A DNA stretch of 64,000 nucleotides from Austropuccinia psidii. Lineage: Eukaryota; Basidiomycota; Pucciniomycetes; Pucciniales; Sphaerophragmiaceae. A program made the position numbers and the translations under genes. Location: positions 47,583,967 through 47,647,966 of the forward strand of contig JALGQZ010000009.1 of the NCBI GenBank assembly GCA_023105745.1. Reading direction: 5' to 3'. The notes beneath the pieces are model-generated. The model did no database searches, was not told where the DNA came from, and worked only from the letters and a program-made list of their open reading frames with translations. Within the stretch, counting starts at the first letter, position 1; each line of letters opens with the position of its first letter. Shown in pieces: positions 5,531 to 61,447 of the stretch.

Positions 5531-6960
5531 TTATTCATTAGAGCAAGAATCAATACACTTTTCTAGGATAGGAAAGGTCACTCCGGCCAAAATTTGATCG
5601 ATGCCCATCTGCATAAGTTCATCTAACTGATTTTGATCCTTGACCAGTATCATTCCTGCACCAACCCCTAAGCTATTGATAGAGATTTTGCTTGATCCAA
5701 AATTTTCTTGTGACCTGGGGACTAGCAGCATATAACTGTGAGTCATTACAAAATTGTAAGACAATTCCCGCAAGACGCTGGTATCTTTGTTGGACATGTG
5801 ACGTAAATGAAGAATCATTAGGTCAAGTAAGGTCATAAATCGACGACCTAACTCCATCTCCATGGAATCACTGGAGGCCGATTTCGAGGAGAGTCGAGAC
5901 TTGGGAAGAAGAACAGCGAAATGAGTGAAAGACAAGCTAGGAAAGCTAAAAGCGTCATCTGGCTCCACAAAAACAAAATGAGAATGAATTATGATGGAAA
6001 AAAGCAACATGTAAAAAGTACTATCTAACCTTCTCTTTCTGGCGAACAACTTGTGATCAAATCCCCAAATGGATTTTGGCTTTTCTCAACTGGCAAAAAT
6101 TGGAAACTGATCTTCTAAATTAACCGGAGAAACCTTCATTTGAAGAGCTCCAATCAAAATTCAAACGCACTGTTTATGAGGCTGACTGTTCAACAGCAAC
6201 GGAAGATAAAGTAGCCACGACACGAGGCAAGATATTAGAAATCAATATGAAACAGGTTGAATATTATAGTTAATTCAAGACGTCTCACGAAGCACCGCTC
6301 TCTGGACCACAATTGTAGAAGGCGATCCAATCATTCTCCGGTTCAGTTGCGTACGCCTGTTTAAGGATGGCATCAAGGGCGAAGAGATCCATGGGGCTAG
6401 GAGGAAGCATCTGTGACTGAAACGCTAAGATCCAATGTCGTAAGTGAAGCTTCCATAACAAAAGGAATACTAACCAAAGCTTTTAAATTCACCCTTGGTA
6501 ACCAAAAGAAAATGGCGTGGCACTACACAATACTTGTTAAGCAAAACTGCGTAGGACTCATCCTCATCTTTGGATAAACTTTCGTCAATCGCCCAGTCAC
6601 AAACAAACAGTTCTCGAACATAAGGTGGCGCAAAAGGGTCGCGGCACTTTTGATCTTGGGGACGAGTCGGTTTTGTGGCTAAAGAAGGAGCGTATCTGAC
6701 TTGAAACTTGGTGGCATTCAGGCAGCGAGCGAATAGGAAATGACACCGGAGAAAACGAAAAGCTTGGTCGTATCAGCTTGTTTGAGCATCCGCCAGACAA
6801 GGGATCTATTGAGCTCATCCAAGGCGGAGACCGAAACACTTACTTTTTGACCTGAAGCTGAAGTGAGACTTCTTTGCTCCGAGTTGATGAAAAGCAACGC
6901 CTGAGCTTTAAGTGCATCATCAAATTTAGATTTCAACAGATTTATGAAGTTGACGGCCAT
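5531..6960 (-). CDS. APA2: Ap4A phosphorylase (ATP adenylyltransferase), six exons
   Basis: Predicted 328 aa, close to the ~325 aa of yeast Apa1/Apa2. Exons on the minus strand: 6844-6960, 6493-6706, 6289-6424, 6171-6185, 6030-6106 and 5531-5958. Every intron has GT...AG ends and joins in frame. The enzyme splits diadenosine tetraphosphate with phosphate into ATP and ADP in nucleotide salvage. Visible family blocks are KFDDALKAQALLFINSE near the N-terminus, FQVRYAPSLATKP (exon 2), the active-site stretch NCGPESGASQPHKHFQFLPV (exons 3-5, with the HxHxQ motif), and the C-terminal ISINSLGVGAGMILVK. The start is the ATG at 6960, since the N-terminal helix follows at once. Exon 4 is only 15 nt. 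It lies 615 bp downstream of the VAM7-like gene, same strand. The function call is strong; exact splice sites rest on reading-frame and motif fit. Confidence 0.88.
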
Positions 6961-7574: not shown

Positions 7575-8842
7575 TTAGCTCAAAACATCAATTTTTTTCT
7601 TAGCGTCCTTTAGCTTTCGAGATGCTGAATCCAGATCGCTATTCAGTTCATCCAAAACTTCGTTTTGTTCAGCTAATTCTTGATTAATCATCATGCCAAT
7701 CTGTTTCTGACGCAACAAAATTTGTGTGAGTGCTTTGAGTTTTGCCTCTTGATTCGTTCCAATCACTTCATGGAGCTGATGATCAACCAACTGTCGATTA
7801 TCAAGTTGTCTGGTCTCGTTAGTTTCTTCAACGGGCACGTCTTGATTTTGCAAGCTAGCAGAACCAAGTACCCTGGTAGTGGGGCGTGTGTTTCCAAGCA
7901 ATTCAGCCCGATTTCGGGCATGAGCGTCAGAGAATTGGACTCCATGCGCAAGCCGCATTCCTGCGTTGATTTGGGGCAAGATAGTTAATTTTCCCAACCG
8001 CTCACAATCATCTTGTAGACTGGAGACTAGGCTGAGTCTTCTTGAGATTTCGCCTTCTGTTAAGACTGTAGCTTCCTTTGATGCAGGTTTGGAGAATTGC
8101 TCTAGACTGTTGGCTAGACCACCCAATCGAGTGTTTAGCGTTGCGAGGGTGCGTTTAACATCAAGACTGATGCGGTTGATATGGGCAAGAGTAGATGAGG
8201 TGGAATCAGGAGTTTGGTTTTGAAGAATTTCATCACGCCGGGAGAGCATATCGCGAAGTTCCCGTACGCTAGCTCGAATCTCATTGTGTTCGATGAGCCA
8301 ACTTTGAGATGTGAAGGGGTTATCTGGGAGTTGAGTTGAGCTGTTTTTCTTGCTTGGTGATGAGCAGCTGAGATCAACAGTCTGAAGCTCTAAAAACTCG
8401 ACCACGGCACGGCAGCGGCCGGTCTGATTTTTGAGCTCCTTATGAACCAGAATAGTCTTTATCCATCTTTCAAGCGCGGCTTGTCTCTCGGCAACTTTGG
8501 CAGGTTGCGTAAGCAAGTTATTCGCACCAGTAAGGTAGCTTATGAGGCCGGTTGATTTGGGCGGTAAAGGAGGAAGCCATCGACGACTAGTCTCTGGACC
8601 AAGCTCTGCTTTGAGATCATTGTATAAGCATTCAAACTCTGAGTAGCGCCGTCTGATTTCGTAAGACTTGAATTTGGTGCCAATCTCTATAGTATACTAT
8701 CCAAGGAAAAAATGGATTCTGAGGTTGATGAGTGCTACGGAGACGTAAGAAGGCCATACCTTACCTGAATATAGGGCTTTGAAGACTTTTGATCCGGCTT
8801 TATGACTTGAAATGATCTGATTGAAATTGATTGAACTTCCAT
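7575..8842 (-). CDS. VAM7: PX-domain Qc-SNARE, VAM7-like
   Basis: Predicted 399 aa from two exons, 8765-8842 and 7575-8696. The 68-nt intron runs from GTAAGG to GGATAG and joins PYIQ to YTIEIG. The N-terminal PX domain (about residues 5-125) shows SIRSFQVIKP, RRRYSEFECLYNDL, the proline-rich LPPLPPKSTG loop and AALERWIKTILVHKEL. The C-terminal SNARE helix (about 345-395) carries RQKQIGMMINQELAEQNEVL, with the Q typical of Qc-SNAREs. There is no transmembrane segment, as expected for VAM7, which is held on vacuolar membranes by PI3P binding through PX and by the HOPS/SNARE complex during vacuole fusion. The middle is a coiled, low-conservation linker. The start ATG at 8842 gives the canonical short leader. 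A syntaxin-8-like or other PX-SNARE identity is less likely. Confidence 0.87.
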
Positions 8843-20693: not shown

Positions 20694-23600
20694 TCAATCA
20701 AGGTTCTGGCCATGTTGAAAACATTGTCCATGGCATCCTTTTGGATTCTTGGGATTCTGTAGCTTGGGGAATATGGTTTCCTCCAATGCTTTTTCTTGTT
20801 CTTCCCTTCTTGGGGCTTGCTGGTAGAAGCTACTGGGGCTTCTTCCTTGGTTGCCTCCTGTCACATGGTGGAATGTGATCTACAACTTGCCAGTATTAAT
20901 TGGTCTTTCAACCGGTTTAATAGCCTTTTTGGCAAGAGCTCCCTTTGCTGAGGTCTGCCAGACAGCATTGTGACAATAAACCGGTTACCAACGTCATGGG
21001 TTCGATTCCGGCTGGAGACAAGGAGGGGTCTCAATCAAACAGCCAGGAATTGCTGGGTTTTCCGCTCAATTGGCATACAAGGGTTCCGCCCCTTGGGGGT
21101 TCCTTGTAGGCTCCTGTTGTGACTAATGTAACTCCATGAGGGTCACATGGGTAATACCATCAGTTACATGCACTTCGGGACGCAGTGCTCTAAACCCAGG
21201 GGTACTGTCACATGGTGGAATGTGATCTACAACTTGCCAGTATTAATTGGTCTTTCAACCGGTTTAATAGCCTTTTCGGCAAGAGCTCCCTTTGCTGAGG
21301 TCTGCCAGACAGCATTGTGACAGTGGACTTTTCCCCAGTTAATTAATTTAGTTTATTTATTATTTTATGAATATTCTTATCCTTATTTTGGGTATTATAT
21401 TTATTTAATATTAAGTTAGTCTTTGCTTTTTTCTCTCTTCGCCTGTACAGTATGAGTTGGGTGGCCATATCCTTATTAACCCTTCTCTTTCCATTCTGAC
21501 AGGTTGAAACAGTGGACTTGGACTTGTTTGTGGTTGGCTCTTCTATTATTTATTCTTATTCTTTTTTGTTGCTGCTTCTTATATTCATTCTTTTAGTAAT
21601 TCATCTTTAACACTCTTAAGTGTATCCTTTCTTACCATATCCTTGAGCCCTCCATAAGTGAGTCCCAGTTTACTGAGTGCCAGGCCCTCTTCACTTCGAA
21701 GAGCCCCTGTGACATTAAATTAATTAACTCATATTTGATTCTTCTTTTCATTCATTTATATTCATTCCTCTCATTCATCAATTATGATCTCTCTTATGAT
21801 TTAATGATCTTAATGATTATGATTTTTCTCTCTCATCAATTTTCATCTCATTCATTTCATTCTTATGAAAATTGATTCTTTTTCTTTCTTAATCATTGCT
21901 GATCATTTCATCACTTCATTTTATTTTTATCAATCAAATTTTTTCTGTGTTCTTATTCAGGTTTTATCTAGGAATTATTGATTGGTTTAATTGATTGGAT
22001 TATTCATTGGGATTCATTTGGGTTATTGATTCAGGATTTATTGGATTTATTGACTTTGAACTCTCAAGATATTGATTGATCCTCAAGAATTGATTTGATT
22101 ATTGATTTGATTTGACTCATCAAGACATTGAACTGATTTCTGAAGATTTTGAACTGATTGATTGATTCCTCAAGACTTGATTTCATATTGAAGACATTTA
22201 TTGATTGATTATTGATTGAATATTGATTGATTATTGATTTCCTCAAGATTATGAATATTTGATTTGGATTGATTTTGACTGATTGAATTGATTTGACTGT
22301 TGATTGAATTTGATTCCTCAAGATTTGAATTGATTCCTCAAGATTCATCAAGATTTATTGTGATTGATTTGGCCAAATTTGATTATTCTTCTTAATACCA
22401 TCAAGTTATTTTAATTCCTTTCATAATGCCAGTTCAGCATAGTCCCCCAGCCAAGAATACTAGATCCCAAAGAATTCAAGCTGTTCTCACTCCCACAGCA
22501 AGGGCTCCTCTTGACCGCACACCATCAGTTCATCAACTGAGTGCAAATTTGGACAGAGGACCACCAATGGAAGGAGCAGCACCCTCAAGAAGAGGTGGAA
22601 TGAAATCTAGAAGATCAAGATCTTTCTCTGGACTTTTGGGTGGCTACCCTGGCATGTCTGAAGGTGCAAGAGCAAGACAAGGGGAAGTTGAAGATGAAGA
22701 GGGGGAAGAGTCTGTGGAAGAGGAAGATTCTGGGGAAACTGAAGTGGCAGATGCCTTGGCAAATGCTCCAGAGGTGCCTCAGGGTTCTAATCTAGCCCTT
22801 TCTAGTCAACCTCTTGTCTCTCAAACTGATCCAAGTCTCCTCAAGATGATGGAGCAGATGACTCAATTCATGGGGCAACTCACTCAAGCAGTTGCTCCCA
22901 GGGACAATTCCAAAGCCCCTGCTTTCAAGACTCCATCCATGAAGGCACCTGATTCTTTTGATGGTACTCAAGCTCATAAGTTGAGAGGATTTATCCAATC
23001 CTGTCAACTAATTTTCCATAATGATCCAGCAAACTTCTTCTCTGGCAGGAAGAAGGTTTTGTACTAAACTTCTTTTCTTACTGGTAGAGCTGGCAAGTGG
23101 ATTGAACCTTACCTCTCAAATATTTCCAATGAAGACCCTTCCTACCTCCTCAATAATTGGCCATTGTTTGAATCTCAATTATTCACTCTGTTTGGTGACC
23201 CCAATGAAGTCAGGAAAGCTGAACAAGAGTTGGACAATTTGAGGATGAAGGAAAGTGGTCATGTTTCCTTGTACATTGCAGATTTCAGAAGCTTGATGTC
23301 AAGAATTGGAAACTGGGGGGAAAGAGCTTATATCCATGTTTACAGAAGAGGATTGGCATCAAGATTATTGGATCAGTTGGCTTCACACCCTGGAACTTTT
23401 GATACTCTTCAAGAACTTATGGATGTCACTTTAGAATTAGACACAAGATTTCATGAGAGACAAAAAGAAAAGAAGCCTCCTGTCAATGGATCCAATCAAT
23501 CTAGACCTCCTCAAAACTCATTTTCAAAGAGGCCTCATCAGAAGAAGAATAAGAAGGGCAAGCAATTTCAGCCTTCAAAGGACAAGCCTCACTCTGCTCT

Positions 23601-26600
23601 CCTCAATAAGGACAATAAGTTAATTGGTTCTGAAAAGGAGAGGAGGATTCAAGAGTGGTTGTGTACTTATTGTGGTGGCAAGCACCCAATTGAAAAATGC
23701 TTCAAGAGACCTCAGAACAAGCCTGGGTCATCATCAAGAGGCTTCCCTAGCAAGCAGGGAAAAGCCTGAGTGGGAATCATGATGTGTTCAATGGTTCTCA
23801 CTTATTTCCTTCAAGAGCACAATTGTGCACTCTGAATACTAGTGTCAAGAAATCTTTAAAGTTTCTTATTTTCTCTTCTGTCTCTGATATTTTTTATAGT
23901 ATTCTCATTGATTCTGGTGCTACAAACTCTTTTATTGCAAAGAATTTTGTTCTAAACTACTCATTGACTATGTCAGAGCTCCCTGAAAAGATTCCTCTTT
24001 TCATTTTGGATTCTAATGAATCCCCTGCCTTGTTCATCACCCATTATACCAAGTGGGTAGTTGACTTGCCTTCTTTCCCAAGCTTTGAGTGGGACTTCTT
24101 TATCATAGATTCACCCAAGGGAGAAGACCTGATATTGGGCTATGATTTCCTTTACCATTTTAATCCCATTATTGATTGGAAAAATGGATTGATCACCTAT
24201 GATTCTAATCATAAGGATTCTAGTGGTATTATTCCTTCTACTAGTAATGACTTTGCCACTGCTGTCAAAAGTGTTGCTCTGGTTGGTGAACTTAAGACAC
24301 CTTCCCTTCCTTCTTCTGTCCATATCCCTTCCATTATTCCCTCTCAGTCATTACTTCCATTAAGAGATGAAGTCTTCAAAGAGATAAAGGATGTTGGAGA
24401 AGATGTAGCCATATCTTCACTTCATCTCTTTCAAGGGGATATGGACCTTCCTCCCTTGTCTTTTCATGCATCCCTGGAGGAGCAGTGGGATGAGGAGGAA
24501 GAGCCAGAAGAAATTGAAACTGTGTTGAAGGTTGTTCCTCCTGCTTATCACCATTATTTGGATGTATTCTCCAAGGTGAAAGCAGAGAAACTTCCTCCAC
24601 ACCGTGCCTGTGATCACCATATCGAATTGGAGGGTCTTCTACCTCCAATTGGTGTTATCTACTCATTATCAAATCAAGAGTCAGAAACACTGCGGGCCTA
24701 CATTTCAGAGAATGTAGAGAAAGGTTTCATTAGACCAAGCTCCTCTTCAACAGGAGCACCTGTCCTTTTTGTCAAGAAAAAGGATGGAGGTCTTTGTTTG
24801 TGTGTTGACTACCGCAAACTCAATGCTGTCACTAGGAAGAACAGATACCCTGTTCCTCCTATGAACCAGCTCCTTACCATATTCAACGGTTCCACTATCT
24901 TCTCCAAGATAGATTTGCGTGGTGCATATAACCTTCTGAGAATCAAAGAGGGGGATGAGCACTTAACTGCCTTTAGAACCAAATATGGCAGTTATGAGTA
25001 TTTGGTCATGCCATTTGGTTTGACCAATGCTCCTGCTTCTTTCCAAAATCTAGTAAATGATATCTTTGCAGATTTTTTGGATGTGTTTGTTGTGGTTTAT
25101 CTTGATGATATTATGGTCTTTTCCAGTTCTGAGGAGGAACATGTCAAACATGTGGCCTCTGTCCTCCAAAGACTGAGGGACAATAATCTGTTTGCCAAAG
25201 CCTCCAAGTGTGTATTCCATGCCTCAAGTGTGGAATACTTGGGCTATGTTGTTTCAAGTGATGGCCTCAAGATGGATTCTTCAAAAGTTCAGCAAATCCT
25301 CAATTGGCCTCAGCCCAAAAACATCAAGGCTCTTCAATCCTTTCTTGGCTTTGCCAATTTTTATCGTTGTTTTATTAAAAATTATTCCAAGAAAATCACT
25401 TCTCTCACTTCCCTTCTCAAAAAAGATTCTCCTTTCATCTTCAATGAGGAAGCTCTTAGTCAGTTTCAAGCACTCAAAGAAGCTTTCACCTCTGCTCCTA
25501 TCTTATCTCATTTCAATCCATCTCTACCTACTATTGTAGAGACTGATGCTTCTGATTATGCATTGGGCGTCGTACTGAGTCAGGTGAATGACTCTGGAAA
25601 GCATCCCATTGCATTTGATAGTCGCAAGCTCTTACCAGCTGAACTCAACTATGAAATTCATGACAAGGAACTCCTTGGCATAGTTTGGGCTCTCAAGCAC
25701 TGGAGGGCATTTCTTCTTTCTCTTTCAAATCCTTTTGAGGTCTTGACAGACCACTCTTCCTTGCAGTTTTTCATGTCTTCCAAAGTTCTTACTCGTCGTC
25801 AGGCCCGTTGGGCTGAATTTCTCTCAGAATTTCATTTCACTATCACTTACCGCCCAGGCAGGCTGGCCACTTTGCCAGATGCCTTGTCACGTCGGGACGA
25901 CGTGTACCCAGAGAGGGGGGTGGACTTCATCAGCAAGAATCCTCATAATTTTCATCAAATACTTAAGCAAGATGGAATTCAAGAGTCAAGATTCTTCTCA
26001 ATCAAAGTGGAAATTTTCTCAGATTTAGTGGACAAGATTCAAAAAGAAGTATGGCAAGACAAAGACTATAAAGAAATACTCAAGCAACTAGCAAGAGGTG
26101 AATCAGTTCCAGATTATTCTCTTGAACCTCAAGCCAAGTTATTATTATTCAAAGATAGAGTGGTAATTCCAAGCAATGAAGAACTTCAACTCAATATTCT
26201 TCAAAAGCGTCATGACTCACCATTGGCTGGCCATCCTGGCCAGGAGATGACCCTCAAGCTCATCAAGAGGGATTTGTATTGGGCTGGCATGAATCAATTC
26301 ATCAAGGACTATGTGTCCTCATGTCAGCAATGTTCAAGAAACAAGAACATTCATCACAAGAAGTTTGGATTACTCAAGCCTCTTTCAATTCTGTCTGGTC
26401 CTTGGAATTCATTATCAATGGACTTCATCACTCAATTGCCACTGTCAAAAAACTTTGATTCAATTTTAGTAGTTTTGGACAGATTCTCAAAAATGGCGAT
26501 CTTCATTCCAACTTATGGCACAATCACTGCTCTGGATTTAGCTCAAATCTTCATTAGTCATGTATTTTCCAAGCATGGACTTCCAGTCAGTATTGTCAGT

Positions 26601-29600
26601 GATAGAGGATCCTTATTTGTTTCATCATTTTGGACTCAATTGTGTCAGAAGCACAAGATATCAAGAGATCTTTCAACTGCTTTTTACCCTGAAACAGATG
26701 GACAGACAGAGAGGGTAAATCAGATACTAGAACAGTACCTTCGGATGTATGTCAGCTATCATCAAGATGACTGGTACACCTGGCTCCCTCTGGCTGAATT
26801 TGCCTATAATAATGCAGAACACTCATCAACCAAGCAATCACCTTTCTTCACCATTTATGGAAGAAATCCCAGCTTTGACTCAATCCATATTTCTCAAGAC
26901 TCACCTGCTGGAAAGTTATCAACAAAACTCCAATCAGTACAGCAAGTTGTCAAAGAAGAATTAGAGTCAGCAATAAGGAGATTCAAGAAGTATGCAGATA
27001 GAAATAGGGCAATTCCACCTGATTTCCAACCTGGGGACAAAGTATGGCTGGCTTCCAAGAACATCAAGACAACAAGACCCACCAAGAAATTATCAGAAAG
27101 ATGGTTAGGACCCTTTGAAGTTCTGAAGAAGATTGGCAGCCATGCATATCACCTCAAGTTGCCTCAGCAATGGAAGACAGTTCACCCTGTATTCCATGTG
27201 TCCTTATTAGAACCAGTCAAGCATTCAACTATCCCAAATCGTCACCAATTGCCGCCACCACCAGTTTTAGTGGAGGAGCAAGAAGAATGGGAAGTGGCTC
27301 AGGTTCTGGACTCAAAACTCAAAAGAGGTAAATTATGGTATCTTGTAGAGTGGAAAGGATTCAGTGAAGACCCAGAAAGAACCACTTGGGAACCATCTTC
27401 CAACCTTACCAACTCACCAGACCTTGTCAAGGATTTCCATTCATTGTATCCAGACAAGCCTGGTCCAAATACCTCAAGAGTTTGATTTTATGGTGCTTGG
27501 TGGGGAGAAGAAGTTATGAAAGTAAGTTCCTCTCCTGGCATGCACCTTTAAGGGGGTATTCTACCCATATGTTGTTGTAAGCATCACCTTGGCCACTTTG
27601 TGAGCACTTGTCATTTCTTTGGACAGGTTCAGGAAGCATACAACATCAATACCCTCCATTTGGACCTTATCAAGATATGGCCCAATGTTTTCTTGTTTAT
27701 TTTTTATTTTTTATTTCTTTCTCTATTTATCATTTCATTTTATGCCAATCATCATAATTCAAGACATTCATAACTTCAAGTCAATTACGGCAATTCAAAT
27801 CCAGAAGTCATTTATGGCAATTCTTTCCAATTTTATGGTGCTTGGTGGGGAGTGGAAGTTATGAAAGTAAGTTCCATCTCCTGGTATGCATCCCTGAGGG
27901 TTCTACTTCTTGTAAAACATCACCTTGGCCACTCTGTGAGCATCAAAATGCTTGGTTTTCATTTTTCAGACACTTATTGGCCAAAATCAAGCAACTCACC
28001 ACAAGAAGGACCAACCATCAGGATTTTTTCTTTACTCTCATTTTCTCTTATTCTTTTATCTTTCTTTCTTTCTTTACTTGTATCATTTTCTTTCTTTTAT
28101 TTCTTTAAAGCAGCAGAATCCCCTCCCCAAATCACGTATTGGGAGGTGCTTTTATTATTTTAATCAGTTTTTCTTATCTCATTTATTAGTTATTATAGGA
28201 GCATGAATAGGAGTCAAACCAACCGTAAACAGGAACAAGACACTGGTTTTCACTCGACCCAAAGCGTCAAGTCCACGTCAAGTTAAAAGTTTGACCTCAA
28301 GGGAATTGGGCCACAAGTCAATCATGGCCCCCCTCAAAACCTCTCAAAGTCAAGGTCCAAGGCCCCTTTGGGGGCTGGAGTCAGCATGGGGGGCCTCCCC
28401 TGCAAGTTTGGGGGAGGCCAAGTTTTGGTGGTCCTGGACCCCACCAATGGGTCCAGGCCATAAAAGTGAATTTATTGTTTTTGGGCCATTTTAGGTCCCA
28501 TGACCCCCTTGGGTCACCAGCAAATTTGGGCCCAAGGGGTCCATTAACCCCCACGGACCGCGGACCGCAGACCATGGCCCACGGACCGCGGCGTACAGAC
28601 CGCAGCCCACGGCCCGCGGACCCTAAGACCTCAAATACTTCAAAAGGCCAAAAAGGGCCAGAAAGTTGCAAAATCCAAAGAAAAGGCCAAAATTGGCCAT
28701 GAACCAAAATCACCTCAAAAACACCCAGGACCCAAGAAAAGGCCAGAATTGGCCATGAACCACATTTCACCCCAAAGACACCAAGGATCCAAAAGAGGCC
28801 CAAAATGGCCATAAATTCAAGGATCCTCAAGATCCTCCATAGAGAAGGCACCAGCCCAAAATCACTATAAGGGCTGGTTGAGGCATTTTGAAGGCCATTG
28901 GGGACAAGACCCCTGAATTCTTGTCACCATCATTTTCCTTGATTGGGCTGGCCAGATGAGTACACTTCATATACTCATCTGGCACCATTTTTTGAGCACA
29001 AGAGCTCAGTGGCCATCATTTTGGGATACAACCCAAGGCCACGCCCCAAGGACGTCAGTTATTGAAATCAGAAGAACAGTTTGAAGTGGGGTATTTACTC
29101 AAAGTTAAAGAAGGGGGGAATGAATTTAATTGACAAGAGAAGAGATGGAGAAGGATTTCGAGATTATGGTCAAAAGAAAACTTTTCAAAGAATTGTGTGG
29201 GGTAGTGAAATGCCACTCAACAGTGGCAGGGTATTATGGTGTTCAGGAGCCCACCAGTTTCAAGAGGGGGATACTGTAACAACCACTCATCAGGGGTAAG
29301 GGTATTCATTCATACACCCACTCAAACACCCCAAATCAGCAGATCCAGCATTTGTATCAGCATTCAATGTCAGCAACCTTCATTCTGAACATGAATACAG
29401 CTTGGTGCCTCAATACAGCCTGTCAATACCTGTACAGGCTGGATTCACCCAATACAGTTTCAATACACCAATAAGGAACTGTATGATCACTCAAATACAC
29501 CACACCTCTTGTACAGGTTCTGTACAGCCGTACAGGACCTGTATTGGCCAGACTCAATTCAATCATCAAATATTCTCATGAAAATTCTTCCTCTGGATCA

Positions 29601-30494
29601 GGGCTGGTGATTCTCACATATACCAGCCCCTCTTTCTCCCCCCTGGGGACTTTTCCCCAGTTAATTAATTTAGTTTATTTATTATTTTATGAATATTCTT
29701 ATCCTTATTTTGGGTATTATATTTATTTAATATTAAGTTAGTCTTTGCTTTTTTCTCTCTTCGCCTGTACAGTATGAGTTGGGTGGCCATATCCTTATTA
29801 ACCCTTCTCTTTCCATTCTGACAGGTTGAAACAGTGGACTTGGACTTGTTTGTGGTTGGCTCTTCTATTCTTTATTCTTATTCTTTTTTGTTGCTGCTTC
29901 TTATATTCATTCTTTTAGTAATTCATCTTTAACACTCTTAAGTGTATCCTTTCTTACCATATCCTTGAGCCCTCCATAAGTGAGTCCCAGTTTACTGAGT
30001 GCCAGGCCCTCTTCACTTCGAAGAGCCCCTGTGAAACCTCCCTCTTTTTGGCATGGTAGTCCTTGATTTTTTTGATTTGAGGTTTGGATGACAGTGGATT
30101 CCATCCATTGGAGTATTTCACTATCTCCTCCTCTTTGAGGAACTTTTTCAGGATGTGCCAGGAGTTCATCACTCCTTGGTGTATTTGAGGCAACATTTCC
30201 CAATCTTTGTCCTTGTACACTGTGCAATACTGCTTGTACTGGCTCATGTAGATGTCTATTTGAGCCCTCTGAATGTGATTTGTACCTGTTTGAGTTACTC
30301 ATACTTAGTTCTAATTCAGGCTCAGATATCATGGGCATTTGTGGGACTTGCCTTTGGGATAAGGCACTTCCTTGTGTGGATTCTGTTCCACTGGGGATAT
30401 TGCCCTTTCTTTTCCCTTTTGAGGGATCAGTTCTACCTCTGAGTCCAGCTCCATCTGATTGGATGGAGTATTGGGAACCTCTTCTGGTAGTCAT
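20694..30494 (-). CDS. Element A ORF1 (gag N-terminal region), split by element D
   Basis: Two pieces, 30037-30494 and 20694-20853, join in frame once one copy of the duplicated GGAGG (minus strand) is dropped; 205 codons. The start is the ATG at 30494 (MTTRRGSQYSIQSDGAG). The product is Ser/Gln/Arg-rich and low in hydrophobics, with no recognisable domain. It ends at TGA 20694-20696 but the same frame continues into gag. The frame one base over (DAMDNVFNMARTLIEFKDK) also looks protein-like at the 3' end, so a small indel may have displaced the frame. Upstream in-frame sequence (to 30779) includes a possible 70-nt intron from GTGAGC to TACCAG. Confidence 0.6.
20859..20975 (+). repeat. Left terminal repeat of TRIM
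   Basis: 117 bp, TG...CA bounded. Its outer edge abuts the CCTCC that is also found at the far right end of element D. Confidence 0.85.
21206..21322 (+). repeat. Right terminal repeat of TRIM
   Basis: Near-identical to 20859-20975. It joins directly to GTGGACTTTTCCCC, the interior of the D LTR (GGGGACTTTTCCCC in the 3' copy). Confidence 0.85.
21323..21714 (+). repeat. Element D 5' LTR, truncated at its left
   Basis: This corresponds to the last ~390 bp of the 3' LTR (29642-30036). The first ~366 bp, which in the 3' copy contain the TATA-like CATATA, are missing and their place is taken by the TRIM. AGTTAATTAATTTA (21337-21350) marks the predicted transcript start. It ends CCCCTGTGACA. Confidence 0.85.
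21715..21729 (+). other. Self-priming primer-binding site of D
   Basis: TTAAATTAATTAACT lies immediately after the LTR. Bases 21716-21729 are the exact complement of AGTTAATTAATTTA at 21337-21350 in the LTR. This matches the Tf1/sushi mechanism, in which the 5' end of the transcript folds back to prime minus-strand synthesis. No tRNA-type TGG site is present. Confidence 0.7.
21730..22425 (+). other. Long leader of D with GATTGATT repeats
   Basis: Non-coding, about 700 bp. From about 21960 to 22380 it is made of imperfect TTGATTGATT and CTCAAGATT units. It leads to the gag ATG at 22426. The leader of G (1-362) is also low-complexity. Confidence 0.65.
22426..23769 (+). pseudogene. gag: Element D gag with one in-frame TAA
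   Basis: The ATG at 22426 opens a 448-codon frame with a single TAA at 23065-23067 in the capsid region. The frame is otherwise open to TGA 23767-23769. Features: basic, Arg-rich N-terminus; acidic stretch (about residues 85-105); a capsid-like region (WIEPYLSNISNEDPSYLLNN) typical of chromovirus Gag; Lys-rich tail; and a C-terminal zinc knuckle, CTYCGGKHPIEKC (CX2CX4HX4C). The following pol is in the -1 frame. The TAA is most simply a fresh nonsense mutation in a young copy. Confidence 0.85.
23757..23763 (+). promoter_or_regulatory. Candidate -1 frameshift heptamer between gag and pol
   Basis: G GGA AAA GCC TGA: an X XXY YYZ slippery heptamer in the correct gag phase, 3 nt before the gag stop. 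The -1 frame is open from here straight into pol (SLSGNHDVF...). No downstream pseudoknot was modelled. Confidence 0.6.
23764..27485 (+). CDS. pol: Element D pol: protease, RT, RNase H, integrase, chromodomain
   Basis: Uninterrupted frame of about 1240 aa, entered by -1 shift from gag; there is no convincing ATG near its start. Protease: LIDSGATNSFIA. Reverse transcriptase: CVDYRKLNAVTRKNRYPVPP and VVYLDDIMVFS (about 25090-25120). RNase H: ETDASDYALGVVLSQ, DKELLGIVWALKHW and TDHSSLQFF. Integrase: HDSPLAGHPGQ and SCQQCSRNK zinc residues, then the D, D, E triad in MDFITQLP, VSDRGSLF and DGQTERVNQ (about 26420-26720). C-terminal chromodomain (about 27290-27440): EWEVAQVLDSKLKRGKLWYL, then VEWKGFSEDPERTTWEP, with all cage aromatics. 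It looks fully functional and is the best pol in the window. Confidence 0.95.
27484..27905 (+). repeat. Duplicated post-pol block with splice-donor-like core (D)
   Basis: A ~75-bp block starting TTATGGTGCTTGGTGGGGAG and containing ATGAAAGTAAGTTCC occurs at about 27484-27558 and again at 27830-27905. The same pair exists in E (56023-56097 and 56388-56462), and in F and C1. Each copy holds AAAGTAAGT, a consensus 5' splice-site core. Confidence 0.7.
28197..28320 (+). other. Scar of the antisense gene in D
   Basis: In E and F this position holds an antisense Zn(II)2Cys6 gene of about 1.27 kb. D keeps only the sequence around its 3' end (plus-strand CTCGACCCAAAGCGTCAA, 28253-28270) joined to the sequence around its 5' end (GTCCACGTCAAG, then TTTGACCTCAAG). 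The junction lies at a TCAA that occurs at both breakpoints in E. Confidence 0.7.
28549..28623. repeat. GC-rich palindromic array in D
   Basis: Imperfect tandem units of CCCACGGACCGCGG type with CCGCGG palindromes, in an otherwise AT-rich element. Matching arrays are at 58337-58424 (E) and a short remnant at 59955-59976 (F). In E and F the array sits upstream of the antisense gene's start. Confidence 0.75.
29262..29274 (+). other. Polypurine tract of D
   Basis: AAGAGGGGGATAC lies directly before the 3' LTR start TGTAACAACC. It is identical in E (to 59018) and in F (minus, from 52712). Confidence 0.75.
29275..30036 (+). repeat. 3' LTR of element D
   Basis: 762 bp, starting TGTAACAACCACTC. 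It carries tandem CAATACAGCCTGTCAATACC-like pieces (about 29410-29540), the TATA-like CATATA (29617-29622) and AGTTAATTAATTTA (29659-29672) about 40 nt downstream. It ends CCCCTGTGAAA next to CCTCC. Confidence 0.9.
29617..29622 (+). promoter_or_regulatory. TATA-like element of chromovirus LTR
   Basis: TCACATATAC lies about 40 nt before the predicted transcript start and is kept in the LTRs of G (minus, near 783-793) and E (near 59355-59365). It is absent from the 5' LTR of D because of the TRIM replacement. Confidence 0.45.
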
Positions 30495-52711: not shown

Positions 52712-53144
52712 GTATCCCCCTCTTGAAACTGGTGGGCTCCTGAACACCATAATAGCCTTCCACTGTTGAGTGGCATATCATTATCCCCACATTTTTTTCA
52801 GAAACTTTCCCTTTAATTTTATTTTCCTCTTGACCATTATCTTGAAAATAGCTTTTCAATTCTATCCTTCCAAATTAATTTCAGGTCCCCCTTCTTTAAC
52901 TTGAGTAAGTCTTCCACTTTGAAATATGCCTTCTTTTATTCTTTTGATTCAATAAGTCCTTCTTTTTGGGGTATGGCCTTGGGTTGTATCCCAAAGTGAT
53001 GGCCACTGAGCTCTTCTGCTCAAAGAAAATGATGCAAAATGAGTATATCAATGTATACTCATATGAAAAGGGCCAACCTGATGTTGGGCCCTTCCTTGCC
53101 TTGACTGAAATTGTCTTGAAAAGAATCTTCATGGGGTCTTTTCC
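52712..53144 (-). other. Tail of element F between E and the 3' LTR
   Basis: On the minus strand this matches the D tail upstream of its 3' LTR (28910-29274). The 3'-most sequence before E is GGGGTCT-TTTCC. It joins 59765 onwards across E. No coding capacity is expected. Confidence 0.75.
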
Positions 53145-53285
53145 TGTAACAACCATCCATCTGGGGTAAGGGTATTCATTGATACACCCACTCAAACACC
53201 TCAAATCAGAAAATCCAGTATCTGCATCAGCATTCAGCTTCAGAAATCTTCATTCTGGAACATGCATACAGTTTGGTACATCAAT
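53145..53285 (+). repeat. Truncated 5' LTR of element E
   Basis: TGTAACAACCATCC through GGTACATCAAT matches 59019-59158. The sequence then switches to pol at ACAGGAGCACC. ACAG occurs at the break in both parents. Confidence 0.8.
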
Positions 53286-56023
53286 TGACAGGAGCACCTG
53301 TCCTTTTGGTCAAGAAAAAGGATGGAGGTCTTCGTTTGTGTGTTGACTACCACAAACTCAATGCTGTCACTAGGAAGAACAGATACCCTGTCCCTCCTAT
53401 GAACCAGCTCCTTACCATATTCAACAGTTCCACTATCTTCTCCAAGATAGATTTGCGTGGTGCATATAACCTTTTGAGAATCAAAGAGGGGGATGAGCAC
53501 TTAACTGCCTTCAGAACCAAGTATGGTAGTTATGAGTATTTGGTCATGCCATTTGGTTTTACCAATGCTCCTGCTTCGTTCCAGAATCTTGTAAATGATA
53601 TATTTGCAGATTTCTTGGATGTGTTTTTTGTGGTTTATCTAGATGATATTATGGTATTCTCAAATTCTGAGGAAGAACATGTCAAACATGTGACCTCTGT
53701 CCTCCAAAGACTCAGAGAAAATAATTTATTTGCCAAAGCCTCCAAGTGTGTATTCCATGCCTCAAGTGTGGAATACTTGGGCTATGTGGTTTCAAGTGAT
53801 GGCCTCAAGATGGATTTTTCAAAAGTTCAGAAAATCCTCAATTGGCCTCAGCCCAAAAACATCGAGGCCCTTCAATCTTTTCTTGGCTTTGCCAATTTTT
53901 ATTGTTGTTTCATTAAAAATTATTCCAAAAAAATCACTTCTCTCACTTCCCTTCTCAAAAGAGATTCTCCCTTTATCTTCAATGAGGAAGCTCTTAGTCA
54001 GTTTCAAGCACTCAAAGAAGCTTTCACCTCTGCTCCTATCTTATCCCATTTCAATCCATCTCTACCTACTATTGTAGAGACTGATGCTTCTGATTATGCA
54101 TTGGGCGCCGTACTGAGTCAGGTGAATGACTCAGGAAAGCATCCCATTGCATTTGATAGTTGCAAGCTCTTACCAGCTGAACTCAACTATGAAATTCATG
54201 ACAAGGAACTCCTTGGCATAGTTTGGGCTCTCAAGCGCTGGAGAGCATTTCTTCTTTCTCTTTCCAATTCTTTTGAGGTCTTGACAGACCACTCTTCCTT
54301 GCAGTACTTCATGTCTTCCAAAGCTCTTACTCGTCGTCAGGCCCGTTGGGCTGAATTTCTCTCAGAATTTCACTTCACTATCACTTACCGCCCAGGCAGG
54401 CTGGCCACTTTACCAGATGCCTTGTCACGTCGGGATGATGTGTACCCAGAGAGGGGGGTGGACTTCATCAGCAAGAATCCTCAGAATTTTCATCAAGTAC
54501 TTAAGCAAGATGGAATTCAAGAGTCAAGATTCTTCTCAATCAAAGTGGAGATTTTCTCAGATTTAGTAGAAAAGATCCAAAAAGAAGTATGGCAAGACAA
54601 AGACTATAAAGAAATACTCAAGCAACTAGCAAGAGGTGAATCAGTTCCAGATTATTCTCTTGAACCTCAAGCCAAGTTATTATTATTCAAAGATAGAGTC
54701 GTACTCCCAAGCAATGAAGAACTTCAACTCAATATTCTTCAAAAGCGTCATGACTCACCATTGGCTGGCCATCCTGGCCAGGAGAAGACCCTCAAGCTCA
54801 TCAAGAGGGATTTTCATTGGGCTGGCATGAATCAATTCAACAAGGACTATGTGTCCTCATGTCAGCAATGTTCAAGAAACAAGAACATTCATCAAAAGAA
54901 GTTTGGATTACTCAAGCCTCTTTCAATTCCATCTGGTCCTTGGAATTAATTATCAATGGAATTCATCACTCAATTGCCACCGTCAAACAGCTTTGATTCA
55001 ATTTTAGTAGTTGTGGACAGATTTTCAAAAATGGCAATCTTCATTCCAGCTTATGGAACAATCACTGCCCTGGACTTAGCTCAAATCTTCATTAGTCATG
55101 TATTTTCCAAGCATGGACTTCCAGTCAGTATTGTCAGTGATAGAGGATCCTTATTTGTTTCATCATTTTGGACTCAATTGTGTTAGCAGCTCAAGATATC
55201 AAGAGATCTTTCAACTGCCTTTCACCCTGAAACAGATGGACAGACAGAGAGGGTAAATCAGATAATAGAACAGTACCTTTGGATGTATGTCAGCTATCAT
55301 CAAGATGACTGGTACACCTGGCTCCCTCTGGCTGAATTTGCCTATAATAATGCAGAACATTCATCAACCAAGCAATCACCTTTTTTCACCATTTATGGAA
55401 GAAATCCCAGCTTTGACTCAATCCATATTTCTCAAGACTCACCTGCTGGAAAGTTATCAACAAAACTCCAATCAGTACAGCAAGTTGTCAAAGAAGAATC
55501 AGAGTCAGAAATAAGGAGATTCAAGAAGTATGCAGATAGAAATAGGGCAATTCCACCTGATTTCCAACCTGGAGACAAAGTATGGCTAGCTTCCAAGAAC
55601 ATCAAGACAACAAAACCCACCAAGAAGTTATCAGAAAGATGGTTGGGACCTTTTGAAGTTCTGAAGAAGATTGGCAGTCATGCATATCACCTCAAGTCAC
55701 CTCAGCAATGGAAGACAGTTCACCCTGTATTCCATGTTTCCTTATTAGAACCAGTCAAGCATTCAACTATCCCAAATCGTCATCAATTGCCGCCACCACC
55801 AGTTTTAGTGGAGGAGCTAGAAGAATGGGAAGTGGCTCAGGTTCTGGACTCAAAACTCAAAAGAGGTAAATTATGGTATCTTGTATAGTGGAAAGGATTC
55901 AGTGAAGACCCAGAAAGAACCACTTGGGAACCAGCTTCAAACCTTACCAACTCACCAGATCTTGTCAAGGACTTCCATTCATTGTATCCAGAAAAGCCTG
56001 GCCCAAATACCTCAAGAGTTTGA
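53285..56023 (+). pseudogene. pol: Element E pol (RT to chromodomain) with three stops
   Basis: It begins inside the reverse transcriptase (GAPVLLVKKKDGGLRLCVDY) and runs colinear with D pol to its natural TGA at 56021-56023, without frameshift. In-frame stops: TAA after GPWN (54947-54949), TAG after FWTQLC (about 55184-55186) and TAG after LWYLV in the chromodomain (55886-55888). YLDD, RNase H, the integrase triad and chromodomain residues are otherwise preserved. It is very close to D in sequence, so both belong to one recently active family. Confidence 0.9.
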
Positions 56024-56787: not shown

Positions 56788-58064
56788 CTAGTTATCTCTA
56801 CCCAAATCATCAAAAGCTCTCTGGAAATCATTTATCAACTCATCTTCATACCAGGCAAATTTTGCAGCCATCTCTTCACAAGCAGTACCTGGAATAGTCC
56901 TGTCATTGGCATACATAATCACCTCTCTGCTATTCCTATCAACCCTCCTGAACAATATGGCCCCAGCATCTTGACTTTCACTAGCTGCGTTGGGATCTTC
57001 TCTGGTAACCCGGATAGGCCAACGTTCTCTTCTTTGAAAAACTTGAGCGGCAGGAAACGGCAAAGGGGACAATCCATCTCTTCTTCTGCTGGAGCTGGCC
57101 ACAGGTTGGAGTTGACAGGAGGTGTTTATGGGTGAGTTTCTGGACTGTTTAACTGGTGATGGTCTTACTGCTAGATTCAAGGCAGGCCTGGCGGTGTGGG
57201 AAGTAGTTGGTGAAGGAGGAGGAAGGGTTGTAGGAATGGAAGCAAGCATTGGTTGGAAGGTTCTTGGAGTGCTGGGAATAACTTGACTTTGGAATCTAGT
57301 GTTGGCAAGAGGTTGAGAAGAGGAATTGCTGGATGGATGGCCACTTGAATGAGGAATAACTTGAACTTCTTCACCATCCAACTCATCACTTCCTTCAGCC
57401 TCTGGATCTGTTGGGGAATCAACAATTCTTCTTAGTTTCTTCACTACTTTCACCACTCCATCAGCATTGGTCCTTGAGATTGGGATTTCTGAGCTGTAGT
57501 GTATGGGCCTACCACCAATTGGAATGGACCCTCCAACATTAGTCCACCTGGCCACATCCCTCTGCCTAGAACCAGTCACTAAATCAGAATATCAGAACCA
57601 ATTCAATCAAAATATGCAAATCACTCACATTGAGAAAATCCAGAAGTTGCATCAGGGGTAGGTTCCTGCCCATAAGGCCCATCTTTCCTGCTCCATAAGT
57701 GTCTCCTGACCTGGGACAAAGTTGATCCAGTACGACGACATGGCTTCTTCCCAAAAAAGCAAAAGTGGCATTTTGACAATTGAGGATTGTAATGTTGAAA
57801 GCATTCCTTACCCCTGGCCAAACATTCAGTACAGGAAGGATCAAGAACTTCAACTGCTCTGAACCCATCATAGGTTTGGGAGGGGTCAAAATGGCCAGAA
57901 GACGCCATGGAAGGGGAGGACAATTGACTGAAGACGCCAGAACCATGAAGAACAGACGGTGGCGGTGCAGAAGGAGAAGATTTAGTGAGCTCAGTCAGTT
58001 TGGAACTCATAACTGAAGAATATGCAAGCAGAAGATTCAAGACGTCAGAATCAATCCACTCCAT
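56788..58064 (-). CDS. Antisense Zn(II)2Cys6 protein encoded in element E
   Basis: Predicted 408 aa in two exons, 57629-58064 and 56788-57578. The 50-nt intron runs from GTGAGTG to GATTTAG and fuses the frames exactly. It lies on the strand opposite to the retrotransposon, between pol and the 3' LTR. Residues 78-109 show Cys at 78, 81, 88, 99, 102 and 109: CX2CX6CX10CX2CX6C, the spacing of fungal GAL4-type binuclear zinc clusters, with basic residues inside (LARGKE, FGKKP). The middle is Pro/Ser/Thr-rich with an acidic patch (DPEAEGSDELDGEE, about 190). The C-terminus has a conserved block, EVIMYANDRTIPGTACEEMA. A second copy exists in F. Transcription factor activity is inferred from the cluster only; the targets and role are unknown. 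I do not recognise a named family. Confidence 0.8.
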
Positions 58065-58336
58065 ATTAATAAAAAGAATTTGACCTCAAGGAAATGGGGG
58101 CCATAACTCAATTATGCCCCCCCTCAAAGCCTCTAAGGTGAAGGTTCATACCCCTTTGGGGCTGAACTCATCACCCAGGGCCTCCCCTGCAACTTTGGGG
58201 AGGCCAGGATCTTGATGGTCCTGGACCCCATCAATGGGTCCAGGCCATGTATGGTGAAAGTTATATTTGGGCCATTTCTGGGCCCCTTGGTCACCCTGGG
58301 TTCCCAGAAAATTTGGGCCCAGGGGGCCTCCAATAA

Positions 58337-58424
58337 CCCCCACGGACCACAGACCGCGGCGTACGGTCCACAGACCACGGACCACGGCGTACGGTCCACA
58401 GCCCACGGCCCACGGACCGTAGGA
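58337..58424. repeat. GC-rich palindromic array upstream of the antisense gene (E)
   Basis: Imperfect repeats of CCACGGACC, CGCGGCGTACGGTCCACAG and similar, about 273 bp upstream of the antisense ATG. It contains inverted CGGACC/GGTCCG half-sites. Its position suits a promoter or binding array for that gene, which is inference. Confidence 0.7.
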
Positions 58425-59018
58425 CCCCAAAGACGCAAAAGCGCCAAATATGGCCAAAAATCAAAAAAAAATACCCAAGTTCACCAAAACAACCAAAAGG
58501 CCCAAAAGGCCCAAAAGGCCATAAAAATCAAGAGGTATCAAGATTTCATCAGGGGAGAGGCCACAGCCCAAAAGCACTTTGGAGGGCTGTTTGAGGCCAT
58601 TTCCATGGACAATGGGGACAAGACCCCTGGAGGAAAATTTTTCAAGATTTCATTGGATTAGGCCTTGCCCAATGAGTACACTTCATATACTCATTGGGCA
58701 TCATTTTTTGAGCACAAGAGCTCAATGGCCCGTATTCTGGGATATATCCCAAGGCCACATCCCAAGGGCATGGTTGATTGAATCAGTAGAAAAGAAATGC
58801 ATATTTTGAAGTGGAATACTTACTCAAACTTGGAAAAAAGGGGGGAATCAATTGAATTTGACAGAGAAGGAGTGAAGAAGGATTTTCAGGATAATGGCCA
58901 AGAGGAAAAGAAAATTAAAAAGAAAATTCTTGAAAAAATGTGGGGATATCGAGATGCCACTCAACAGTGGCAGGGTATTATGGTGTTCAGGAGCCCACCA
59001 GTTTCAAGAGGGGGATAC

Positions 59019-59764
59019 TGTAACAACCATCCATCAGGGGTAAGGGTATTCATTGATAAACCCACTCAAACACCTCAAATCAGCAAATGCAGTATCTGCA
59101 TCAGTATTCAGTTTCAGCAATCTTCATTCTGAAACATGCATACAGTTTGGTACATCAATACAGCCTGTCAATACCTGTACAGGTTGGATTCACCCAATAC
59201 AGTTTCAATACACCAGTATGAAACTGTATGATCACTCAAATACACCACACCTCTTGTACAGGCTCTGTACAGCTGTACAGGACCTGTATTGGCCAGACTC
59301 AATTCAATCATCAATTATTCTCATGAAAATTCTTCCTCTGGATTGGGGCTGGTGATTCTCACATATACCAGCCCCTCTTTCTCCCCCCTGGGGACTTTTC
59401 CCCAGTTAATTAATTTAGTTTATTTATTATTTTATAATTATTCTTATGCTTATTTTGTTTATTATAATTATTTAATTTTAAGTTAGTCTTTGCATTTCTT
59501 TCTTTGCCTGTACAGTATGAGTTGGGTGGCCATATCCTTATTAACCCTTCTCTTTCCATTATGACTGGTTGAAACATTGGACTTGGACTTGTTTGTGGTT
59601 GGCTCTTCTATTTCTTATTCTTATTTCTTTGTTGCTGCATTTCTCATATCTTTTATCATAGTAATCCATTCCTTACACTCTTAAGTGTCATTAATCTTTC
59701 CATATCCTTGAGCCCTCCATAAGTGAGTCCCAGGCCCTCTTCACTTCGAAGAGCCCCTGTGACA
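59019..59764 (+). repeat. 3' LTR of element E
   Basis: 746 bp, TGTAACAACCATCC to CCCCTGTGACA, preceded by GAGGGGGATAC. It contains AGTTAATTAATTTA at about 59404-59417. Confidence 0.9.
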
Positions 59765-59954
59765 TGTCCCCATTTACCTTGGAAATACCTCCCCTGGCCT
59801 TACCATAGCTATTTTGGGCCTTGGCCCTTGCTAGGATACTTCCTGATCAAATTGATTTTATGGCCATTTGGGCTTTTTTTGGGTCTTGGGGTGAAAATGG
59901 CAGAAAATTGATATATGGCCATTTTTGGCCTATTCAAAGTTCCGGTGTCATATG

Positions 59955-60233: not shown

Positions 60234-61447
60234 TTGAAGTGGACTGATTCTGACATATTGAATCTTCTTCTTGCATATTTCTTAGTCATTAGTTCCAAAC
60301 TGACTGCCTCACTGAATATTCTCCTTCTGTTCTTTGTGGTTCTGGCGTCCTAAATCAATTGGATTCACCTTCCATGGCTTCTTCTGGACATTTCAATCCC
60401 TCCCAAACTTATGATGGTTAGAAGGCAGTTGAAGTTCTTGATCCTGCTTGTACTGAATGTTTGGCCAAGGGTAAGGATTGTTTTCTACATTACACTCCCC
60501 AATCTTCAAAGTGCCACTATTGTTTCATTGGAAATAAGCCATGTCATTGTACTGGGGTGCAAGCTTCAAATGTCAGGAGGTATTTATAGAGTAGAAAAGA
60601 TAGTCCTTTTGGAAACGAGTTTCCAGTTTCTGAGGCACCCACTCCTGATGGAACTTCAGGGTTTTCTAATTGTTAGTAATTTGAGTAATTTGATTGAGTT
60701 TAGTACTGATATTCTTGATTTAGTGACTGGTTCTAGGGAGGTGGACCCATTCCAGTTGGTGGTAGGCCAAGATACTCAAGCTCAGAAGTCCCAATCTCCA
60801 GAATCAACACTGACGGTGTAGTGAAGAGAATAAGAAGAATTTCTGATTCCCCACCTGATCCAGATGCTGAAGGCAGTGATGAATTGGATGGTGAAGAAGT
60901 TGAAGTTGTTCCTCATTCAGTTGGCCATCCATCCAGCACTTCCTCTTCTCAGCCTCTTGCCAACAGATTCCATAGTCACATAGCTCCCAGTACTCCCAGA
61001 ACTTTCCAACCTACTCTTGCTGCCATTCCTACTTCCCTTCCTCCTGCTTCACCAAATACTTCCCATGCCAGGCCCTCCTTGAATCAAGCAGTAAAACCAT
61101 CACCCATAACCACCTCTCAACATCTCCAACCTGTGAGCAGTTTCAGCAGAGGAAGAGATGGGTTTTCTCCTTTACTGTTTCCTGCCGCTCAAGTATCTCA
61201 AAGAAGAGATTGCTGGCCTATCCAAGTTACCAGAGAATATCTAAACACAGCAAGTGAAAACAAGGAAACTGTGGCCAGGTTGTTCAGGAGAGTTGATAAA
61301 AATAGTAGGGAGGTGATCATGTATGCAAATGATAGAACTATTCCAGGGACTGCTTCTGAAGAGATGGCTGCAAGCTTTGCCTGGTATGAAGATGAGTTGA
61401 TAAATGAGCTTCATAGAACCTTTGATGATTTGGTTAGAGATAACTAG
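60234..61447 (+). pseudogene. Antisense Zn(II)2Cys6 gene of F, decayed
   Basis: Homologue of the 408-aa gene in E, again opposite to its host element. The ATG is TTG (60234-60236), exon 1 has in-frame stops (for example after SQTYDG, 60418-60420), and exon 2 has lost a few bases near its start so the first codons shift frame. The intron is kept (60672-60723, GTTAGT to TTTAG). The six zinc-cluster cysteines are all kept (CTECLAKGKDC, CHYCFIGNKPC). From 60821 to 61447 the frame is fully open and close to E (MYANDRTIPGTASEEMA). Confidence 0.8.

Follow-up and report, generated by a model that had tools for sequence, protein, structure and literature searches.

A conserved antisense gene for a six-cysteine protein in a Ty3 chromovirus family of the rust fungus Austropuccinia psidii

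Genes lying antisense between pol and the 3' long terminal repeat (LTR) of retrotransposons have long been known in plants and in one fungal family, and the available accounts describe their function as unsettled. Here we analyze such a gene in a 64,000-nucleotide stretch of the Austropuccinia psidii genome (contig JALGQZ010000009.1, positions 47,583,967 to 47,647,966; hereafter the window), where it is carried by a copy of a Ty3 chromovirus family. The genome of this rust is reported as slightly larger than 1 Gb, with more than 90% transposons and a predominance of Gypsy elements (PMC8063080). The fungal counterpart is brtn of the Boty element of Botrytis, an antisense gene at the same element position (PMC7264820, PMC8365987, PMC4227169). 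Boty-like elements of B. cinerea likewise are fungal LTR elements with a chromodomain-containing gag-pol and an extra antisense gene between pol and the 3' LTR. They differ in belonging to an ascomycete, and the available excerpts mention no six-cysteine cluster, phased array or selection analysis, our comparison with brtn being one of descriptions only. In plants, Grande, RIRE2 and Retand carry antisense genes at this position, for which DNA binding and regulation have been proposed (PMC7264820, PMC11963269). Their antisense open reading frames (aORFs) encode a TRP28 domain for which DNA binding is predicted; tandem repeats occur in the corresponding region in roughly half of the Retand elements that were studied. 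However, these elements live in plant hosts, Retand is not a chromovirus, the domain is unrelated, and a zinc cluster goes unmentioned in the excerpts available.

Two further systems share features with the A. psidii gene. VANDAL elements are DNA transposons. The VANC proteins of Arabidopsis VANDAL elements are element-encoded, sequence-specific anti-silencing factors whose targets are short motifs in the element, often in tandem, and protein and targets are described as co-evolving (PMC5735166). For VANC, binding and loss of methylation have, by the same account, been proven by experiment, whereas the A. psidii system is known from sequence. HBZ is a spliced bZIP regulator encoded at the 3' end of HTLV-1. 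As described, it too is the nuclear product of a retroelement antisense gene, but its carrier is an infectious retrovirus and its antisense promoter lies within the 3' LTR.

Our preferred reading, to which we assign a probability of roughly 40%, is that this family carries an antisense gene under purifying selection, the six-cysteine product of which likely binds DNA, likely acts on the element's own CGG array so as to keep the element active. If the protein is made and binds zinc, it would enter the nucleus and bind the array; once bound, it would promote the element's expression or protect the element against silencing by CpG methylation, and gene-less copies with the same array could borrow it in trans. 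As far as the literature searched goes, four features are new relative to known antisense genes, namely a cluster of six cysteines, a phased array, modular exchange and a gene-less lineage that succeeded; no Gypsy element with a zinc-cluster gene on its antisense strand was found in that literature, most subscription journals being outside its coverage.

Structure, position and selection of the antisense gene

The gene occupies the minus strand of the window, with exons at 58064-57629 and 57578-56788 that yield 408 codons counted from Met1. A preliminary description of this DNA had reported a spliced antisense open reading frame (ORF) of 408 amino acids; the ORF and the predicted intron are as it stated, but the conserved length is not. 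We searched the 1.015-Gb genome (84 contigs) for copies and aligned 58 of them, namely 56 loci picked by similarity to the window protein, the window copy itself and a homologue in a second element, F. Met19 (58010) is an ATG in 53 of these copies and Met1 in only 20, so that the conserved protein comprises 390 and not 408 amino acids. Judged from the alignment, translation most likely starts at 58010. Exon 1 then spans 57629..58010 and exon 2, including the stop codon, 56788..57578, both on the minus strand; the in-frame stretch upstream, 58011..58064, is likely to be untranslated. The predicted intron of 50 nucleotides (57579..57628, minus strand) reads GTGAGT...CTGAT...TTTAG, with GT and AG present in 54 of the 58 copies and CTGAT in 53. 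Its length is 50-52 nucleotides in 55 copies and 27 in three. These three (L001, L003 and L004), near relatives of the window copy, have in common an intron that still starts with GTGAGT and ends with TTTAG, and this shortened form was copied, its competence for splicing aside. Splicing of the sense genomic RNA would be blind to an intron on the antisense strand, and the orientation of the gene would thus account for the survival of the predicted intron in an element with an RNA stage. The same exon junction is bridged in A. psidii database proteins such as P0001 (390 amino acids).

As to the integrity of the copies, nine of the 58 are free of premature stops and frame-breaking exon indels, start and splice sites being disregarded. 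The window copy is without 18 nucleotides, in frame, that are present in 55 of the 57 others. Four otherwise similar copies (L044, L045, L048 and L056) have a frame-breaking deletion of 23 nucleotides in common, probably close to where exon 1 ends, which may have spread with the element. Two of them, L048 and L056, lie 77 kb apart on the same contig (G000:C17) and have 100% identical genes, perhaps owing to a segmental duplication.

The gene belongs to the element, and to a large family. A 24-nucleotide pattern from the gene start, allowing up to three mismatches, occurs at 2,834 places genome-wide and its reversed control at none. Among 40 flanked copies, 33 have both the pol C-terminus downstream and the LTR upstream in opposite orientation, five have pol only, two the LTR only and none neither, which bears out the location between pol and the 3' LTR first proposed for the window gene; as an opposite-strand ORF at this place, it has the position that defines an aORF-3R. 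In the window, the carrier copy is rearranged: an LTR-start fragment (53144-53285) is fused to mid-pol at 53288, and the frame of the pol remnant (53288..56021, plus strand) is broken, whereas the antisense gene is open. Reverse transcriptase (RT), RNase H and integrase zinc-binding domains were matched in this remnant, its chromodomain zone being recognized by alignment to a better preserved element, E1 (21325-30034). E1 has no antisense gene, and 388 bp of its LTRs are 99.7% identical. Its pol (23751..27485, plus strand) is an open frame of 1,244 amino acids, next to a gag stretch with one stop, and contains RT, RNase H, integrase and a chromodomain (Pfam PF00385, E 2.8e-10), the set that identifies a Ty3 chromovirus. 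Upstream of the antisense gene, the carrier continues with a spacer (58065..59018) that shows type-specific divergence and is a candidate site for the antisense promoter, a sequence at 59006..59018 (plus strand) that resembles a polypurine tract and precedes the LTR, and the 3' LTR (59019..59765, plus strand, end approximate), delimited by sequence comparison. Gene copies on different contigs are 98.4-99.6% identical, indicating that gene-bearing copies moved recently.

The protein is under purifying selection. In the 54 copies suited to the analysis (four of the 58 were too damaged), the ratio of nonsynonymous to synonymous divergence (dN/dS) in the true frame is 0.31 over 1,431 pairs. Across bins of rising synonymous divergence (dS), it falls from 1.02 (dS <0.05, 10 pairs) through 0.63, 0.41 and 0.31 to 0.25; masking of CpG sites changed the overall value little (0.28-0.31). 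A ratio near 1 had been proposed beforehand as one of the outcomes that would together speak against a functional gene, and the observed value, far from 1, marks a conserved element protein gene. The pol C-terminus, used as a control (39 copies), gave 0.43 and bins of 1.00, 0.57 and 0.34. The gene thus behaves as pol does, the mark of conservation in an aORF-3R. Values near 1 in young pairs that drop with divergence point to selection during element replication and neutrality after insertion. Shifted frames gave 1.26 and 1.12. Of the three frames on the opposite strand, two gave 1.11 and 1.15, and the third, in which third positions are shared, gave 0.41 and averages 14.6 stops per copy. Codon bias can hold antisense frames open, and the gene might in principle be such a chance frame. 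The 57 copies counted average 1.49 premature stops in the true frame, and 22 of them have none, whereas the other five frames contain 11-34 per copy; together with the dN/dS of 0.31, these counts refute the explanation, whose probability is close to nil. Another alternative places the function in the antisense transcript instead of the protein, since a transcript antisense to the 3' portion of the genomic RNA would pair with it into double-stranded RNA, a mode of control proposed, according to the available sources, for plant elements. We rejected it as very improbable on account of the selection at the amino-acid level and of the indel lengths: of 24 distinct exon indels, 11 have a length divisible by three, whereas such lengths account for 10 of 43 indels in a section of the spacer, 9 of 85 in the downstream part and 5 of the 18 found in pol.

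Selection could also act at the level of the host, if the gene were a recently captured host transcription factor with host genes as targets. The predicted intron and the cysteine spacing of a fungal cluster would fit such an origin, which the preliminary description had considered. Against it stands the element context, seen on at least one side in 40 of 40 flanked copies. Gene and pol have gathered post-insertion stops at similar rates (69 in 14,554 and 47 in 8,034 codons; 38 copies), or 0.038 and 0.064 per stop-accessible change, respectively, which speaks against upkeep by the host and gives no sign of host-level selection. The 120 protein matches listed, of 643, are all hypothetical proteins of A. 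psidii MF-1 (relatives in other rusts may rank below 120), and among a capped set of 7,988 scored candidates of 429-1365 amino acids (E <=10) there were four matches, each from A. psidii. Capture from the host thus has found no support so far among the matches listed, and we rejected it, on element context and pol-like accrual of stops, as highly improbable.

The cysteine cluster and the CGG array

The zinc-cluster-like motif of the protein, CX2CX6CX10CX2CX6C, covers codons 78-109 counted from Met1 (57738..57833, minus strand). Each of its cysteines is present in 50-54 of the 58 copies; all six are found in 34 copies, five in 15, four in six and three in three. The cluster is also the most constrained part of the protein (dN/dS 0.14), followed by the C-terminus (0.21), the N-terminal part (0.36), a proline/serine-rich part (0.37) and the middle (0.45). 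By eye, a basic stretch, an acidic stretch (SDELDGEE) and the proline/serine-rich part surround the cluster. The presence of a cluster with GAL4-type spacing, as originally noted, holds: none of 200,000 shuffles of the protein reproduced the spacing, a pattern stricter than the published rule. The window protein agrees with the PF00172 spacing, CX2CX6CX5-16CX2CX6-8C, the Zn2Cys6 rule used for Candida (PMC2447501). In the descriptions available, this spacing is shared by the fungal Zn2Cys6 factors Gal4 and Pho7, from which the antisense protein differs in having neither a profile match nor fold support.

Within the spacer of the carrier lies an array of heptamers, in which CGG recurs every 7 or 14 bp (58340..58418; periods 7 and 28, from density and spacing counts). 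A corresponding array, recognized by CGG/CCG density and spacing, is retained in the gene-less E1 (28510..28640). Nowhere else in the window are CGG/CCG triplets as dense as in these two, which hold 10-11 per 100 bp where the mean is 0.23. In seven gene-bearing copies chosen for rich arrays, the observed/expected ratio of CpG is 0.57-1.17 within the array, whereas the remainder of the spacer has 0.02-0.08, the gene 0.14-0.29 and pol 0.00-0.14. The array of young copies stands out as CpG-rich in an element that otherwise has little CpG. Pairs of CGG are binding sites of typical Zn2Cys6 factors, as reported (PMC5559640). An array that keeps its CpG is of interest because young transposons of A. 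psidii are described as CpG-methylated, which is thought to silence them (PMC12774611). Tandem turnover could be an alternative source of the CpG in the array.

Exchange and loss of the gene, and its proposed function

A cutoff of 92% identity to the window copy divides the gene-bearing copies into two types, A and B. Between them, net synonymous divergence amounts to 0.234 in the gene and 0.039 in pol (9 and 21 copies). A scan along the element in 31 copies, 10 of 41 with odd flanks having been excluded beforehand, gave a net divergence of 0.022-0.111 in the gene and 0.020-0.106 in the spacer, whereas pol had 0.003-0.023 and the first part of the LTR 0.009-0.039. Since divergence is raised in gene and spacer and low in pol, the two behave as one module, which, from the sequences compared, seems to travel over a common pol backbone. 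We had anticipated congruent trees for gene and pol, and the weak correlation of their distances pointed us to this module. Type-wise divergence is seen for the gene and for the spacer with its array; the pairing of protein type with array type lies outside this result. A more elaborate version of our reading, which we consider unlikely as a whole, is that the family possesses a counter-silencing system of its own, in which an antisense zinc-cluster protein would act on a CpG-rich array phased at 7 bp, with exchangeable types of protein and array over a shared pol and with gene-less users. The protein may alternatively serve the replication cycle as an accessory, in nuclear entry, RNA handling or tethering to integration sites, the CGG array then being unrelated. 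Plant antisense products such as GENE23 of Grande are described as nuclear and comparable roles have been proposed for them; the basic and acidic stretches and the constrained C-terminus would also suit an accessory. Yet this explanation, which we hold to be doubtful though deserving attention, leaves both the phased array and the joint divergence of gene and spacer without a cause.

E1 represents a third spacer type, C, which is 74% identical to A and 73% to B, with 95% identity within C (13 copies); in pol, E1 shares up to 98.6% identity with gene-bearing type A. The junction at which E1 lost the gene (28240..28290, plus strand, located by sequence comparison) is found at 282 places, its reversed control at none, and the junction region has at least 42 matches at 90-100% identity among 1,436 candidates. 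At one locus (G000:C11:18706492-18707321), the gene-less junction region is repeated in tandem, with three copies spaced by about 290 bp. E1 and all 12 relatives read that share its junction possess the array in a long or short form, the densest 130 bp holding 2-8 CGG in 13 of 13. The type-C spacer pattern matches 601 places at two mismatches, compared with the 2,834 gene-start matches at up to three, the mismatch limits being different and neither figure an element total. In 10 further type-C places, beyond the listed matches to the E1 junction, the gene was found in none. Two of them (L069 and L075) have the E1 junction within three mismatches, and seven keep about 54 nucleotides of the 3' end of the gene together with a stretch around its start; a last one, L077, matches neither deletion form. 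In those seven, the remnants score 67-75 for the start, against at most 34 in 600 shuffles, and 37-41 for the 3' end, against 32. The remnant scores of E1, L069, L075 and L077 taken alone do not exceed those of shuffles, and E1 is linked to the last codons of the gene by a longer alignment that runs into them. The gene is thus, by these alignments, lost through internal deletion in at least two forms, which may be nested, one being derived from the other. We dropped the E1 deletion as the sole form of loss in view of the longer remnants of both ends in seven of the 10 further copies.

Loss of the gene on this scale would be expected if its product were a self-limiting repressor that restrains copy number, lineages without the gene having been released and amplified. 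Proteins with such clusters are able to repress, and one gene-less junction at 282 places, together with a second deletion form in seven of the 10 further copies read, is consistent with release. On the other hand, selection is difficult to maintain for a repressor carried by an element, and this gene nevertheless remains selected; gene-bearing copies have been recently mobile as well, as their identity of 98.4-99.6% across contigs indicates. We therefore judge self-repression to be improbable, if a serious contender. Regulation of the element itself remains the best idea on the function of the gene.

Several observations weigh against the activating protein-array system that we prefer. Some of them concern the protein. 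The window protein, 45 database proteins and 19 cluster fragments gave no Zn_clus match in hmmscan searches against Pfam at E <=10, a result qualified by the HMMER filters, which discard most weak matches; the GAL4-family identity suggested in the preliminary description accordingly failed the profile check proposed with it, and we do not file the protein as a Zn2Cys6 member. A profile search of the PDB gave four weak matches (E >=0.087), none of them relevant and three to an acidic stretch of pICln. AlphaFold2 models of the full-length protein and of a fragment had mean predicted local distance difference test (pLDDT) scores of 39.6 and 48.3, too poor for use, and Foldseek returned no matches for the low-confidence fragment model. 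Because profile, PDB and fold searches lend no support, we use the name zinc-cluster-like. Other observations concern the array. Because the densest 130 bp were selected, the CpG ratio is overestimated: 118 control chunks had a median of 2 CpG and a ratio of 0.36 but reached 10 CpG and a ratio of 3.61, and 8-10 CpG occur at 5767, 6629, 8139 and 25773 (the last inside E1 pol), versus 12-14 in both arrays. Most other arrays are poor, with a median of 3 CGG/CCG in 41 gene-bearing spacers and at least 5 in 11 of them. The candidacy of CGG as target derives by analogy from the Zn2Cys6 literature. Furthermore, some 600 bp separate the array from the 3' LTR, and the promoter in the 5' LTR is remote, an arrangement that makes self-regulation of the antisense gene an equally good target. 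Finally, distances in gene and pol are weakly correlated (Spearman 0.13; 32 of 1000 permutations were as high), and the 282 gene-less junctions mean that the gene is dispensable in cis.

Further features of the window and bearing on the rust genome

The window contains a second, decayed copy of the gene. As the preliminary description had it, a homologue sits in the inverted element F, where we located it at about 60260..61447 (plus strand, start approximate), with stops and frame-breaking gaps. At 20858-21322, where the start of the 5' LTR of E1 was expected, two 118-bp repeats (99% identical) are spaced 347 bp apart; they begin with TGTCACATGG and end with TGTGACA, and a tRNA-like stretch, GGTTCGATTCC, lies in between. 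This could be a very small LTR element on a tRNA-like core; ARAGORN called no tRNA there. On the minus strand, 7575-8696 is an open frame that contains CpG-rich spots and probably is an ordinary host gene, with what we take to be a PX-domain-like start.

With thousands of copies, open genes, deletion lineages, exchangeable types and, in one and the same element, a candidate target, the A. psidii family allows public RNA and methylation data to be used for a direct test of what antisense genes at this place in an element do. It thereby also bears on how a rust genome grew to one gigabase.
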